From assembly GCF_900113655.1 (NCBI RefSeq), contig NZ_FOQF01000006.1:62001-126000 (forward strand): a DNA stretch of 64,000 bases, in the 5' to 3' direction. Shown piece by piece: positions 9,332 to 62,400 of the stretch (position 1 is the stretch's first letter; every line of letters begins with the position of its first letter). The notes under the pieces were generated by a model, which was not told the DNA's origin, did no database searches, and saw only the letters and a program-made list of their open reading frames with translations. Position numbers and translations under genes: made by a program. The DNA comes from Pseudobutyrivibrio sp. OR37 (GTDB lineage: Bacteria; Bacillota; Clostridia; Lachnospirales; Lachnospiraceae).

Positions 9332-9353
9332 AGTGAAGGAAATTTTATATAGA

Positions 9354-9440
9354 AACGGGAGCTTGTAAACAGGCTGAGAGGAAGGTGTGACCTTCGACCG
9401 AGAACCTGATTTGGATAATGCCAACGTAGGGACGCCGATT
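9354..9440 (+). promoter_or_regulatory. TPP riboswitch (THI box)
   Basis: The element has the conserved TPP aptamer parts in order: cgggagc at 9356, the pyrimidine-sensing caggctgagag at 9370-9380, a variable P3 hairpin (gaaggtgtgaccttc), and gagaacctgatttggataa followed by tgccaacgtaggga. It lies upstream of seven thi genes and is followed by a terminator hairpin, so it probably acts by transcription attenuation: bound thiamine pyrophosphate shuts the operon. Confidence 0.95.
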
Positions 9441-9455
9441 AATTATGATATTACG

Positions 9456-15228: not shown

Positions 15229-15612
15229 GTTAAGTGAAAATTGGAATAGTTGATATCCCACTTAAAAAATGGAAAGTGTGTTAAGTGAATATAAGAAAAA
15301 TAAAAATTCACTTCAAAAAGCTTAAAAATATTTATGTATAATTAAGTTTATTTCTGAAAACTATATTTTCACTTAATAAGGTGATTGAGCTTTATAAGTT
15401 TAAATCTATTATGAAGGAAATAAACTTAAGAAATTCAAAAGTTACAACTAAAAAGTTAAGTTTATAATATTTATTTTTTAATACACTTAACAGGATTTTG
15501 CATTTATAAGTGAAATTTTTATTTTGTTTAATACACTTAACTTTTAAGCGATTGTGAGATAAGTGAATTATGAATTCATCTGTTTTTCACTTAACTGCAA
15601 TAGATATAAGTG
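15229..15612. repeat. Array of seven inverted-arm units (TTAAGTG / CACTTAA)
   Basis: A gene-free AT-rich stretch carries seven units. Each has a left arm (TTAAGTG or close variant) and a right arm (CACTTAA or variant) 28-29 bp apart. Left arms start at 15230, 15281, 15342, 15394, 15456, 15506 and 15559; right arms at 15259, 15309, 15370, 15423, 15484, 15534 and 15588. Variant arms keep pairing: TAAGTTTA with TAAACTTA in unit 4, ATTAAGT with ACTTAAT in unit 3, GTTAAGT with ACTTAAC in unit 5. The centres of about 21 nt are unrelated. Unit starts are 51, 61, 52, 62, 50 and 53 bp apart. A single unpaired arm follows at 15606. A weak promoter-like pair (TTGAAT 15190, ATAAAT 15213) lies in front. 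Confidence 0.8.
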
Positions 15613-16786: not shown

Positions 16787-16833
16787 AAAGGTCTATATTT
16801 TATAAATTTTATAAGGTTTTATTTTGGTATGAC

Positions 16834-16967
16834 TTCTTGTGGGCTACTTAAGGAAAAAGCCCACAAGAACTTGGCTTCGCCAAGCAATATTTTCTTTCAG
16901 AAAATATTGGTCTATGTCCGGTTCTTGTTTTTCTGATGAAAAACAAAAACCTATATTTTTTTATAGA
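16834..16967. other. Tandem hairpins in the leader of the metal-binding protein gene
   Basis: Five consecutive hairpins occupy this gap: a 12-bp stem at 16834-16845/16858-16869, cttggc/gccaag at 16870-16884, an 11-bp stem at 16885-16909 with a 3-nt loop, a 14-position stem with one mismatch at 16920-16951, and ctata/tatag at 16951-16967. Several stems have T-rich 3' sides but no classic terminator tail. They may stabilise or attenuate the mRNA between the two genes. Confidence 0.6.
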
Positions 16968-26802: not shown

Positions 26803-26818
26803 AACTAATAAATGAGCT

Positions 26819-26859
26819 AAGGCTCTGATTCGTAAATGAATCAGAGCCTTTCTTTTTTT
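26819..26859 (+). terminator. Terminator after the alpha-glucosidase gene
   Basis: A perfect 13-bp stem (aaggctctgattc / gaatcagagcctt) with a 6-nt loop is followed by a T-rich run to 26859. Confidence 0.9.
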
Positions 26860-26870
26860 GGAGAAAATTG

Positions 26871-26899
26871 TTGACAGCAACACCATAAAACGTTATATT
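26871..26899 (+). promoter_or_regulatory. Near-consensus promoter before the inverted-arm array and nuclease gene
   Basis: Perfect TTGACA (26871-26876), 17-bp spacer and TATATT (26894-26899). A transcript would begin near 26906 and carry the whole array 26992-27200 as an untranslated leader of about 300 nt before the nuclease frame. The stretch 26906-26991 holds no other recognisable feature. Confidence 0.75.
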
Positions 26900-26991
26900 A
26901 ATGAAGATTTTTGTTATTTTATTTTTGTTTTTCACTATTCTTGCAGCACTTCGTTGCATGTTTCCGATGTTTTTTTATTGGCTTTTATGGT

Positions 26992-27200
26992 ACTACGTCT
27001 ATGTTTTGTTAATTTAAATGTTAAGACGTAGTCAAAAACTATCGTTACGTCTCGGGAGAGGTTTATGAGAACCGTAGACGTAGTTTGAAATGCACCCAAA
27101 AGAGAGCTTACGTCTTATTCTATCCCAAAGGATAAATTAGACGTAGTAGTATAGGCCTGCCTACGTCTTGCGATACGATTGTAGATGATTTAGACGTAGT
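26992..27200. repeat. Array of four inverted-arm units (TACGTCT / AGACGTA)
   Basis: Left arms TACGTCT start at 26994, 27046, 27109 and 27162; right arms AGACGTA start at 27024, 27076, 27139 and 27192. The offset is exactly 30 bp in all four units, leaving a 23-nt centre that differs each time. Arms extend to 9 bp in unit 1 (ACTACGTCT / AGACGTAGT) and 8 bp in unit 4. Unit starts are 52, 63 and 53 bp apart. The centres have additional weak self-pairing in units 2 (cgg/ccg) and 3 (atcc/ggat). The last right arm ends four bases before the ATG of the nuclease gene. Confidence 0.88.
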
Positions 27201-27203
27201 GGG

Positions 27204-28031
27204 ATGAAATTTGTAAATAGAAAGAGTGATTTATTGGTATTAAATAAAGATTATGTGGAGCAACAGCTCAAAGAACTAAGGCTTCTCCTTAAAGAATCTG
27301 ATAAGAGAGTAGCAATTGGGAAGCGTCTTCCCAATATACATGTAAAGGTTTCCAAAAGTAATGGCTGTAACCAATATTATTACATTAATCCTGACACAAA
27401 AAAGCTTGTATACGTGAAAAAGGAGGATTTAATGAAGGTAGCCAGAATTATCCAAAGAGATTACAACCTTGAAGTTAACAAAACCATTAGAAAGCAGATA
27501 GGTAAACTTGAGAAATTCATAGCTAATTACGATTTTGATGCTATTGATAAGGTTTATGAAAAAATGCCAGCAGCTAGGCAGCAGCTTACAAATCCAATTG
27601 TTCTGAACGATGAGCAATATGTATTGAAATGGCGAGCAGAGCATCCTGCAATGCAGAATACATTTCCAGTGGAGGGAAAATATAAGACTAATCGCGGTGA
27701 ATTAGTTAGATCGAAATCAGAAAAAATCATTGCAGATACTTTAGATAGATATGGAATTCCCTATCAATACGAACCTTTTCTTGAATTAGGAAATAGCGCT
27801 GTTTATCCTGATTTTGCTGTATTGAATTTGAAAAAGCGAAAGACCTTGTACTGGGAGCATTTAGGAATTGTTTCTGAAAATGATTATGCTAAAAAGAACT
27901 TTAAAAAGCTTCAGATGTATGAGAAGAATGGTTATTATCTTGGGACAAACCTGATTATTACAATGGAGTCTGATATGGTGATGCTTGATATAAAAAATGT
28001 AGAGGAGAAAATTAATGAATTATTATTATAA
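27204..28031 (+). CDS. PD-(D/E)XK-like nuclease of unknown function
   Basis: 275 residues. The C-terminal half has a nuclease-like pattern: RSKSE (Glu173), YQYE (Glu190), YPDF (Asp203) and YWEHLG (Glu218). This fits a PD-(D/E)XK fold, although the usual lysine of the third motif is not evident. The N-terminal half has a QYYYINPDTKK strand and a helical region with RDYN. Similar proteins are frequent in Lachnospiraceae, to my recollection, but uncharacterised. The ATG at 27204 has no good ribosome site (gtggg only). ATG 27432 (residue 77) has AGGAGG at 5 nt and could start a shorter form. The leader holds the inverted-arm array, and a possible 37-residue ORF overlaps its end. Confidence 0.65.
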   Translation: MKFVNRKSDLLVLNKDYVEQQLKELRLLLKESDKRVAIGKRLPNIHVKVSKSNGCNQYYYINPDTKKLVYVKKEDLMKVARIIQRDYNLEVNKTIRKQIGKLEKFIANYDFDAIDKVYEKMPAARQQLTNPIVLNDEQYVLKWRAEHPAMQNTFPVEGKYKTNRGELVRSKSEKIIADTLDRYGIPYQYEPFLELGNSAVYPDFAVLNLKKRKTLYWEHLGIVSENDYAKKNFKKLQMYEKNGYYLGTNLIITMESDMVMLDIKNVEEKINELLL

Positions 28032-28128
28032 TTATATTTGTTTAATACAGAAATTCCATACTGAAAGAACCGGGAAAGAATTATTATGTTATGAATGTAA
28101 ATATAATTCATTCTGTTTTAAACGATGA
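28015..28128 (+). CDS. Possible 37-residue Cys-containing small protein
   Basis: A short frame overlaps the last 17 bp of the nuclease gene and has a strong GAGGAG site 8 nt before its ATG. The product has four cysteines (9, 25, 28 and 34), including CYEC, and could be a zinc knuckle. The ribosome site is also coding sequence of the nuclease, so chance is possible. If real, it would be translationally coupled to the nuclease and could be an accessory or antidote. Confidence 0.3.
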   Translation: MNYYYNYICLIQKFHTERTGKELLCYECKYNSFCFKR

Positions 28129-28134
28129 TTAAAA

Positions 28135-28175
28135 ATCCACCGCGGTCCCAAAGCTATAGGGCCTGCAGTGGATAA
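28135..28175 (-). terminator. Terminator of the LacI-family regulator gene
   Basis: Imperfect GC-rich hairpin (tccac..ggtccc paired with agggcc..gtgga). The minus-strand RNA gains G-U pairs and ends in a T-run (ggattttta), which fits termination of the minus-strand regulator gene. Confidence 0.65.
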
Positions 28176-59409: not shown

Positions 59410-62400
59410 ATGTACAACAAAGTAGACGCTAGCCTGAACTTCGTAGAAAGGGAGAAGCAGGTATTGAAGTTCTGGGAAGAAAATGACATCTTCCAGAAGT
59501 CAATGGATTCAAGAAAAGAGGGAGAGACTTACACATTTTACGATGGCCCTCCAACAGCAAACGGTAAGCCACACATCGGTCACGTAGAGACACGTGCCAT
59601 CAAGGACATGATTCCTAGATTCCAGACAATGAAGGGCAAATTTGTTCCTAGAAAAGCTGGTTGGGATACTCATGGTCTTCCAGTAGAGCTTGAGGTTGAA
59701 AAGCTTCTTGGTCTTAACGGAAAAGAGCAGATTGAAGAATACGGTATGGAGCCTTTCATTAAGCAATGTAAGGAATCTGTATGGAAATACAAAGGTATGT
59801 GGGAGGATTTCTCTGGAACTGTAGGTTTCTGGGCTGACATGGATAATCCTTACATCACATACGACAACAACTTTATTGAGTCTGAGTGGTGGGCACTTAA
59901 GACTATCTGGGACAAGAAGCTCCTTTACAAGGGATTCAAAATCGTTCCATATTGCCCACGTTGTGGTACACCTCTTTCAGCACAGGAGGTTGCACAGGGA
60001 TATAAGACAGTTAAAGAGCGTTCAGCAGTTGTTCGTTTTAAAATCAAGGGTGAGGAGGCTTACTTCCTTGCATGGACAACAACACCATGGACACTTCCAT
60101 CAAACCTTGCACTTTGCGTAAATCCAGATGAGACTTACATCAAGGTTAAGGCAGCTGATGGCTACACATACATCCTTGCAGAGGCACTTGCAGATAAGGT
60201 GCTTTCAAAGGTTGCTACAGAAGAAGGCGTTAAGCCTTACGAAGTACTTGAAACATACAAGGGTACAGATTTAGAGTACAAGGAATACGAGCCACTCTTT
60301 GAGTGCGCAGGCGTTGCAGCTGAAAAGCAGCACAAGAAGGCTCACTTTGTTACATGTGACTCATACGTTACTATGTCAGATGGTACTGGTATCGTACATA
60401 TCGCTCCTGCATTTGGTGAGGACGATGCTAAGGTTGGCCGTAAGTACGACCTTCCATTCGTTCAGTTCGTAGACGGCAAGGGTGAAATGACAGAGGAGAC
60501 TCCTTATGCAGGTCTCTTTGTTAAGAAGGCAGACCCAGAGGTTCTTAAGGACCTTGATAAGGAAGGCAAGCTTTTCGATGCTCCTAAGTTCGAGCACGAA
60601 TATCCACATTGCTGGAGATGCGACACTCCACTTATCTACTACGCTAGAGAATCATGGTTCATCAAGATGACAGAGGTTAAGGATGACCTGATTAGAAATA
60701 ACAATACAGTTAACTGGATTCCTGAAAACATTGGTAAGGGACGTTTCGGTGATTGGCTTGAGAACGTTCAGGACTGGGGTATTTCTCGTAACCGTTATTG
60801 GGGAACTCCACTTAACATTTGGGAATGTGCAGATTGCGGTAAGCAGATTTCTATCGGTAGCCGTAAGGAGCTTGCAGAGCTTTCAGGCAGACCTGAAGCA
60901 GAAACTATCGAGCTTCACCGTCCATACATCGATGAGGTTACATGCACATGTCCAGAATGTAAGGGCACAATGAAGCGTGTACCAGAGGTTATTGACTGCT
61001 GGTTCGATTCAGGTGCTATGCCATTTGCTCAGCATCATTATCCATTCGAAAATAAGGAAGTATTTGAGCAGCAGTTCCCTGCTAAGTTCATTTCAGAGGC
61101 TGTTGACCAGACTCGTGGATGGTTCTACTCACTTATGGCAGAATCTACACTTCTTTTCAACAAGGCTCCTTATGAGAACGTTATCGTATTAGGTCACGTT
61201 CAGGATGAGAATGGTCAGAAGATGTCTAAGTCTAAGGGCAACGCTGTTGATCCATTCGACGCACTTGAGAAGATGGGCGCAGATGCTATCAGATGGTACT
61301 TCTACACATCTTCAGCACCATGGATTCCAAAGAGATTTGGTGAGAACGCAGTTATGGAAGGCCAGAGAAAGTTCCTTGGAACTCTTTGGAATACATACGC
61401 TTTCTATATTTTATATGCAAATATCGACGAGTTTGATCCTACAAAGTATGAGCTTGATTTCAGCAAGCTTGCAGTTATGGATAAGTGGATTCTTTCACGT
61501 CTTAATTCAAGCATTAAGGCAGTTGATGATAATCTTTCAAACTACAAGATTCCTGAAGCAGCACGTGCTTTAGATGAGTTCGTAGATGATATGTCAAACT
61601 GGTACGTACGTCGTTGCCGTGACAGATTCTGGGCAAAGGGAATGGAGCAGGATAAGATTAATGCTTACATGACTCTTTACACATGCCTTAAGGATATCTC
61701 ACTTGCAGCAGCACCTATGATTCCTTTCATGACAGAGGAAATCTACCAGAACATGGTTCGCTCAGTAGATAAGACAGCTCCAGAGTCAATCCATCTTTGT
61801 GACTTCCCAGTTGTTAATGAAGCATTCATTGACAAGAAGCTTGAGGAAGATATGGATGAGCTCCTTAAGATTGTAGTTCACGGACGTGCTTGCCGTAACA
61901 CAGCACAGATTAAAAATAGACAGCCAATCGGCCAGATGTACATCAAGGCTGAGCATGAGCTTGATGAAATGTACGTTTCAATCATCGAGGATGAGCTTAA
62001 CGTTAAGAAGGCTACCTTCACAGATGATGTATCTTCATTCACATCATACTCATTCAAGCCACAGCTTCGTACAGTAGGACCTAAGTACGGTAAGTTCCTT
62101 GGCGGTATCCAGAAGGCTCTTGCATCACTTGATGGCAACGCAGCTTATGCAGAACTTAAGGCAAATGGGGTATTAAGATTGCCAGAGGTTGATGCATCTA
62201 TCGAGCTTGCAGAGGAAGACTTACTTATCTCTATGGCTCAGACAGAAGGCTTCGTAGCAGATGGAGACAACTACGTAACAGTAGTTCTCGATACAAATCT
62301 TTCAGAAGAGCTTCTTGAGGAAGGCTTCGTAAGAGAAATCGTTTCAAAGATTCAGACAATGCGTAAGGAAGCAGATTTCGAGGTTATGGACCGCATCACA

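Follow-up and report, generated by a model that had tools for sequence, protein, structure and literature searches.

What is the regular array of inverted 7-bp motifs in the leader of a nuclease-like gene of Pseudobutyrivibrio sp. OR37, and what reads it? We analyzed the stretch of 64,000 nucleotides that contains it (the window; positions 62,001 to 126,000 of contig NZ_FOQF01000006.1). An earlier note on this DNA described motifs alternating between TACGTCT and AGACGTA in four units and offered three readings: an RNA array with hairpin-flanked variable segments, a set of phased protein sites that control the nuclease, or the nuclease's own target array. We conclude that the array is probably a set of phased double-stranded half-sites for the protein encoded downstream, which would bind them cooperatively, limit its own expression, and occupy gene-less (orphan) arrays in trans.

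Re-reading the sequence bore out the four alternating units exactly, with an arm-to-arm offset of 30 bp in all four and unit starts 52, 63, and 53 bp apart (Table 1), and the promoter lies where it had been described. The right arm extends to the 9-mer AGACGTAGT in every unit. The array does adjoin the gene, as the note had it, but the gap between the last arm and the ATG at 27204 is five bases counted from the 7-mer and three from the 9-mer, not four.

Table 1. Features of the window in order of position, with the start of both arms given for each unit.
Feature	Position	Strand	Basis
Orphan array, GTTAAGT/ACTTAAC type, between thiC and a cytidylate-kinase-like gene	15229..15595	.	array scan, Pfam
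Whole cassette (terminator-like hairpin, promoter, array, nuclease-like gene, tail)	26809..28171	+	absent in G008
Hairpin and T-run, terminator-like, between the GH31 gene and the promoter	26820..26859	+	sequence
Promoter TTGACA-N17-TATATT	26871..26899	+	sequence
Unit 1, TACGTCT-N23-AGACGTA (arms start at 26994 and 27024)	26994..27030	.	sequence
Unit 2, TACGTCT-N23-AGACGTA (arms start at 27046 and 27076)	27046..27082	.	sequence
Unit 3, TACGTCT-N23-AGACGTA (arms start at 27109 and 27139)	27109..27145	.	sequence
Unit 4, TACGTCT-N23-AGACGTA (arms start at 27162 and 27192)	27162..27198	.	sequence
275-aa PD-(D/E)XK-like protein; alternative start TTG 27234 possible	27204..28031	+	sequence, model
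Predicted arm-reading beta-hairpin, residues 46-61	27339..27386	+	covariation, models
Nuclease-like domain, residues 160-275	27681..28028	+	invariant residues, model, PADLOC

A chance origin of the array was ruled out by shuffles, a tile scan, and a motif count. On a score that rewards inverted pairs about 30 bp apart, the nuclease-leader array reached 8.0, versus a maximum of 2.8 in 1080 shuffles, in two-base blocks, of upstream regions of the family. Nine of 423 window tiles scored above 2.8, each placed over either the nuclease-leader array or another one at 15.2 kb. Counting both strands, the window has 12 copies of TACGTCT versus 2.62 expected, a count that 0 of 100 shuffles reached; 8 of the 12 fall in the nuclease-leader array.

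Homologues of the protein are common in the genus. Matches were found in 32 of 61 genomes searched and in 28 of the 29 from the genus, with 11 in the genome of the window itself (G000); the number per genome of the genus ranged from 0 to 11 with a mean of about 6 (29 genomes), and 64 of 294 genomes of the order had the protein. We read the upstream DNA of 110 loci, the stronger matches among the 61 genomes, and scored 106 of them, leaving out four with less than 400 nt upstream. The earlier note had proposed that homologues be checked for alternating inverted arms about 30 bp apart, and most of them have such arrays: 93 of the 106 loci, mostly from one genus, scored above all 1080 shuffles, and 81 reached a score of at least 4. 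The leaders of 13 loci scored 2.8 or less and had no clear array, the one at L015 being an array of decayed appearance. Inverted 7-mers pooled over the upstream regions gave 107 pairs at an offset of 32 and 66 at 30, versus 0 to 3 per shuffle, with the peak at 32 because pairs were extended outwards. At the same threshold, arrays were present in 17 of 22 loci from other genera. A set of named loci (Butyrivibrio, Acetatifactor, and others), which overlaps the first set and does not count 6 of 80 loci with less than 300 nt upstream, had arrays in 58 of 74.

The arm words differ by paralogue clade (TACGTCT, TGCATCC, TACGGAA, TACCACT, GTTAAGT, and more, with ATGCATCC, TACAGTG, TTACCACT, TACTATC, GACACGC, and TGTATGG as further types), and in many of them a TAC core sits about equally far from the unit axis. 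Paralogues within one genome have different arms in the same geometry. Neither this variation nor the orphan arrays, one of them in the window, figured in the earlier note. Some arrays repeat strictly, every 51, 52, 53, or 63 bp, and the caller placed as many as 11 units in 600 nt; the largest array among the named loci has 12.

The nuclease-leader array is kept in its two closest relatives. In each of them, 0 of 56 arm bases had changed versus 28 to 41 of 149 other bases, although conservation counts of this kind, here and below, carry a mild bias toward conserved arms because either the motif or a single member of each sequence pair defined the arms. In one close relative (L003, G025:C88), the reading frame is broken after about residue 174 and the array arms are intact.

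We determined the spacing of units in the 99 arrays that scored at least 4, a set that includes near-identical relatives and also served for the arm-pair counts below. Distances between unit axes cluster at 52-53, 62-64, 73-74, 84, 94-95, and 104-106 bp, and the gaps between these clusters are nearly empty. The phasing at 10.5 bp had an R of 0.843 (n = 233 distinct per-array spacings) and of 0.817 for the 114 spacings of at least 57 bp. The promoter shares this register. In 28 of 61 arrays, versus 0.8 expected from shuffles, the first called arm was preceded at 120 to 207 bp by a promoter within one mismatch of TTGACA-TATAAT; the first 227 nt contained one in 0 of 57 arrays. When up to two mismatches were allowed in the promoter (31 arrays), the distance from promoter to first unit axis was phased with an R of 0.75 at 10.5 bp and 0.77 at 10.75 bp, or 0.67 for the 20 distinct values. 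At the other end, the start codon was not in phase with the last unit (R = 0.27 at 10.5 bp). A 10.5-bp period is the signature expected for proteins bound on one face of B-form DNA.

The arms look like double-stranded half-sites and not like RNA hairpins, since they vary independently and show no significant excess of G.U pairs. In all, 3412 of 3626 arm-pair cells were complementary, in arrays drawn by a caller that tolerates a single mismatch at most between paired arms and so itself favors complementary arms. Mismatches were G.T in 56 cases and A.C in 43 (P = 0.23), and deviant arm bases were matched in the partner arm in 24 of 244 cases versus 37.7 expected by chance. An RNA array, in which leader hairpins present the variable 23-nt loops as guides or regulators, would draw on the upstream promoter and on a leader that folds better than its shuffles (z = -2.7), of which one in 200 did equally well. 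However, the opposite strand folds better still (z = -5.7), as inverted repeats would, and the 10.5-bp phasing, the arrays without a gene, and the lack of compensation within units all tell against it. At the gathering threshold, Rfam recognized a TPP riboswitch elsewhere in the window (9345-9449) and nothing on the array; at an E value of up to 1, there was one match (E = 0.67), far under its gathering score and on the other strand. We thus abandon the RNA reading of the earlier note, which is extremely improbable. Its reading as phased protein sites holds as far as sequence goes, from the phasing of units and promoter, the independent arms, and the tracking of arm by protein described next; the sites probably also control the nuclease gene. 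What stands of its third reading, the nuclease's own target array, is a probable target for binding alone.

Arm type follows the protein, best in an N-terminal beta-hairpin, in a test from which phylogeny was partly removed. The Mantel correlation between arm distance and protein distance was 0.570 for residues 1-150, 0.562 for residues 46-110, and 0.380 for residues 161-275, values that 0 of 500 permutations reached. With overall protein distance regressed out (1522 of 4465 pairs), the best partial-correlation columns were residues 52, 53, 49, and 48. Nine of the best 25 covarying columns lie in residues 46-72 and none in 161-275; the other 16 lie outside residues 46-72, for example at 32, 82, 88, and 137. 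These results suggest that the protein reads the arm. Some other host protein might read the array with the nuclease as its passenger, given that binding by the encoded protein is our inference, but arms differ between paralogues of the same genome while the geometry is kept, and they follow the sequence of the protein, above all in the hairpin, which leaves a passenger nuclease very improbable.

The structure model of the protein has a pLDDT of 93. Residues 1-11 are the sole stretch of the model below 50, so the TTG at 27234 may be the real start; a weak ribosome-site-like AAAGAG, noticed by eye, precedes it. In the N-terminal part, strands are predicted at residues 47-52, 55-61, and 68-70, followed by a long helix, and the same arrangement appeared when this piece was modelled alone. 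A three-stranded sheet with a helix is the common DNA-binding sheet fold of lambda and Tn916 integrase arm-binding domains, MBD, and AP2 domains; unlike in lambda integrase, no recombinase domain is attached. A Foldseek search with the N-terminal domain listed lambda Int (1z1b) first, a chemokine second, and an MBD third, at E values of 0.49 to 0.71, none significant.

The C-terminal domain retains the predicted catalytic acids. E173, D203, E218, and H219 are invariant in all 64 aligned members, and dN/dS was 0.06 to 0.26 across 12 pairs (0.14 for L001 versus L002). The predicted active site is therefore probably in use, and its conservation suggests that cutting matters to the protein. The consensus of the 64 members has no conserved Lys at the usual catalytic position of the PD-(D/E)XK pattern. 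T7 endonuclease I, a junction-resolving PD-(D/E)XK enzyme, has the pattern RSxxE...YE...PDF...E.KG with a catalytic Lys; the protein's RSKSE...YEYE...PDF...EH.G resembles it but lacks a consensus Lys and has an invariant His after the second Glu and an extra N-terminal domain. The T7 endonuclease I profile matched weakly (profile positions 159-199; E = 0.13), and the fold search with the full model gave no significant match, its first Foldseek matches being PD-(D/E)XK-fold nucleases at E values of at least 0.024. With neither fold search significant, names such as "Int/AP2-like" or "T7 Endo I-like" carry little weight. PADLOC PDC-S68, a candidate defense protein with a profile of about 1200 positions, matched the C-terminal 115 or so residues at its very end (positions 1100-1218 of 1221; E = 1.9e-29) and left the predicted arm-reading half unmatched. 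Five Pfam families matched any of the 64 members at an E value of up to 0.01, one member each and no Y1 transposase among them; with Pfam and NCBIfam together, no model matched more than one member, and the single matches were at chance level.

In the arrangement we propose, a protein dimer would probably hold one unit of two inverted arms, with the N-terminal sheet and helix, above all residues 48-56, reading the arm. Successive units stand 5, 6, 7, or more helical turns apart, and as these are whole turns, the dimers would line up on one DNA face and could bind cooperatively. At its own gene, the complex would be positioned downstream of a strong promoter, with which it would be in phase, and ahead of the start codon; there it would most likely throttle transcription by contact with RNA polymerase or as a roadblock, so that each protein limits itself. 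The C-terminal PD-(D/E)XK-like domain, with its acids kept, is perhaps closest to T7 endonuclease I. Diverged arms of paralogues would keep the protein-array pairs orthogonal, and gene-less arrays in intergenic DNA would be occupied in trans.

Gene-less arrays are present in the window and elsewhere in the genome. The GTTAAGT-type nuclease of G000 lies on contig C22, and four gene-less arrays of this type, of about 350 to 370 bp, lie on C45, on C48 at 35 kb, on C63, and in the window. These copies are about 65 to 78% identical; the alignment of the two most similar (C48 and C63) stops at the outer arms, and many matches in other genomes begin at query positions 524-530 and finish at 868-905. 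The site of the window orphan is occupied in G008 and G023; G018, G025, and G006 lack the array, the matches to the flanking genes being 46 to 55 bp apart there. A second TACCACT-type array lies between a formyl transferase (purN-like) and a GARS (purD-like) gene, as named by Pfam, and an exact search for the TACAGTG type matched its own leader alone. No nuclease relative was found within 1.5 to 3 kb of the arrays in L148, L150, L153, L350, and L382, nor elsewhere in the window besides the gene at 27204..28031.

The arm type of the window is dispersed in another form. With at most one mismatch, TACGTCT-N23-AGACGTA occurs 11 times outside the cassette in G000, versus 0 for a reversed-pattern control, and these comprise one isolated unit together with five pairs whose members are 176 to 178 bp from each other. 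Elsewhere, there is one pair each in G008, G023, and G025 and one in G006 with its units 158 bp apart. At one mismatch, pattern versus control gave 15 versus 0 in G000, 6 versus 1 in both G023 and G025, and 3 versus 1 in both G008 and G006, and many genomes had 0 to 3 matches by chance; two mismatches gave 17 versus 13 in G000, and we therefore used matches with at most one. A search of G000 with an outer motif, GTGTGGCATA...TACGTC, returned two matches, both at known pairs.

Orphan arrays accompany their cognate nucleases. GTTAAGT orphans were found in 9 of 10 genomes with the cognate nuclease clade (clade support, 1.0) and in 1 of 19 without it (P = 9.5e-6); for the TACGTCT type, the counts were 3 of 3 and 2 of 26 (P = 0.0027). 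In three genomes, no cognate nuclease appeared among the loci read although orphan sites exist: TACGTCT pairs in G006 and G008, and a TTAAGT-type array in G021. The arm bases of orphan arrays also change less than the rest, which indicates that orphan arms are being kept. Two orphan arrays of G000 differed at 0 of 86 arm bases versus 80 of 280 others, and the C63 array compared with its counterpart in G018 differed at 5 of 86 versus 107 of 280 (P = 5.7e-10), in G008 at 0 of 86 versus 17 of 280 (P = 0.016), and in G023 at 0 of 86 versus 9 of 280 (P = 0.12, not significant). Autoregulation on its own would hardly account for this conservation. Five genomes (G000, G008, G023, G018, and G006) share an orphan array at one intergenic position; at the C63 site in G025, the flank alone was matched.

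The site of the cassette is empty in one genome. G008 has the same GH31 and LacI-family neighbors (named by Pfam) with 3 bp between the two matches; the cassette alone is missing there, its terminator-like hairpin included. G008 nonetheless retains a TACGTCT pair, in which 0 of 28 arm bases had changed versus 23 of 185 others (P = 0.05). By eye, no target-site duplication was found at the ends of the cassette or at the thiC array.

Several accounts of what the protein-array pair does were weighed against these data. A selfish duo, in which the cassette is autonomous, the protein moves arrays, orphans are REPIN- or MITE-like non-autonomous copies, and self-regulation is secondary, is compatible with half-sites bound by the encoded protein and does not exclude them. 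The shared outer boundaries of the dispersed GTTAAGT-type arrays, their co-occurrence with the nuclease clade, the presence and absence of cassette and window orphan at orthologous sites, and the end-like flanking motifs shared by the TACGTCT pairs all suit it. The missing target-site duplication and the divergence of the four G000 copies, which gives no sign of a recent burst, do not, and arms conserved at a fixed site are unlike decaying transposon copies; we regard this account as possible, at somewhat less than even chances. That same conservation, an orphan array held at one site in five genomes, and another between purN and purD would fit a transcription network or a chromosome-structuring role, with a regulator of nuclease-type fold and orphans as regulatory or architectural sites. 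Yet orphans lie between convergent, divergent, and same-strand genes in a mixed fashion, the number of matches varies widely among genomes, G025 shows the flank alone at the C63 site, and invariant predicted catalytic acids are unexpected for a pure regulator, so that a role of this kind appears unlikely.

A defense or addiction nuclease restrained by its own array, with orphans as decoys that lower the amount of free nuclease, would suit the self-limiting layout and a C-terminal domain that resembles the ends of PADLOC PDC-S68 and of large plasmid AAA ATPases. Against it, the neighbors in the window are metabolic genes and a LacI-type regulator with no partner gene, there are matches to three phage records, in one case along 82% of the protein, and nine relatives in viral contigs match at the C terminus alone; we hold this account to be improbable, more so than a regulatory network. 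We also rejected a restriction-modification pair: the direct neighbors are the GH31 and LacI-family genes, and no methyltransferase was recognized there or, by eye, among the wider neighbors. A CRISPR-like array, suggested by regular repeats beside a nuclease-like gene, was set aside as well; the 7-bp repeats alternate in orientation, the centers within several family arrays are similar to each other and not unique spacers. By eye, no cas-like gene was recognized at 20 to 36 kb of the window.

For phased half-sites read by the encoded protein, the nearest parallel is REPIN-RAYT (TnpA-REP), in which a chromosomal nuclease-type gene is accompanied by inverted repeats dispersed extragenically, protein and repeat co-evolve, and a genome may hold more than one group (PMC3116915, PMC8266576). 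As in that system, cognate repeats of some arm types are dispersed in extragenic DNA, though an exact search gave none for TACAGTG. Unlike RAYT proteins, the 64 members have no Y1/HUH family among their Pfam matches and are PD-(D/E)XK-like instead, and in place of single-strand REPIN hairpins there are independent, double-stranded-like half-sites in 10.5-bp phased arrays. The proposed self-limitation downstream of the promoter would resemble C proteins of restriction-modification systems, for example C.Kpn2I, which is reported to bind downstream of a promoter and limit its own gene as a roadblock (PMC6237814). C.Kpn2I is a separate restriction-modification regulator; here, the nuclease-domain protein itself would bind.

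The open-licence PMC literature yielded no description of such arrays or such regulation, which is weak evidence of absence. We lean toward an undescribed class of Lachnospiraceae elements made of multicopy, orthogonal nuclease-array pairs, with private phased arrays that govern their own gene and with selfish or functional orphans; it would parallel REPIN-RAYT with double-stranded sites and a PD-(D/E)XK protein, and would offer a natural library of diversifying DNA-recognition hairpins. If binding is true, a family of up to 11 members per genome, in which each clade has its own repeated DNA word, would amount to a code for protein-DNA recognition of natural origin. It would also be a novel sort of dispersed repeat in bacteria whose partner protein can be named, and might provide new enzymes for genome targeting. 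Such a family would bear on why bacterial genomes keep extragenic repeats and make that question experimentally direct.

Further observations concern the DNA around the arrays. The TACGTCT pairs lie at L115, L116, L117, L118, and L132 in G000 and at L136, L137, L139, and L142 in other genomes. Several share the motif AGTGTGTATTAT inside and GATATGCCACACT outside, and some lie, by eye, near surface-protein-like or Rpn-like genes; the pairs look like parts of a small dispersed element. The single TACGTCT unit of G000 (L133:1279, G000:C63:25778) joins the left flank of a pair to the right flank of its second unit, as if the 177-bp segment between two units had been lost. A dispersed repeat of about 41 bp, found at L153:1391-1432 and at about 16829-16869 of the window, has many copies in the genus and lies outside the array. 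The leaders of several paralogues (e.g., L018, L020, and L021) have a similar TTATCACTnnnnTGGC-loop-GCCA element just 3' of the promoter, which might form a hairpin or serve as another site for a protein.
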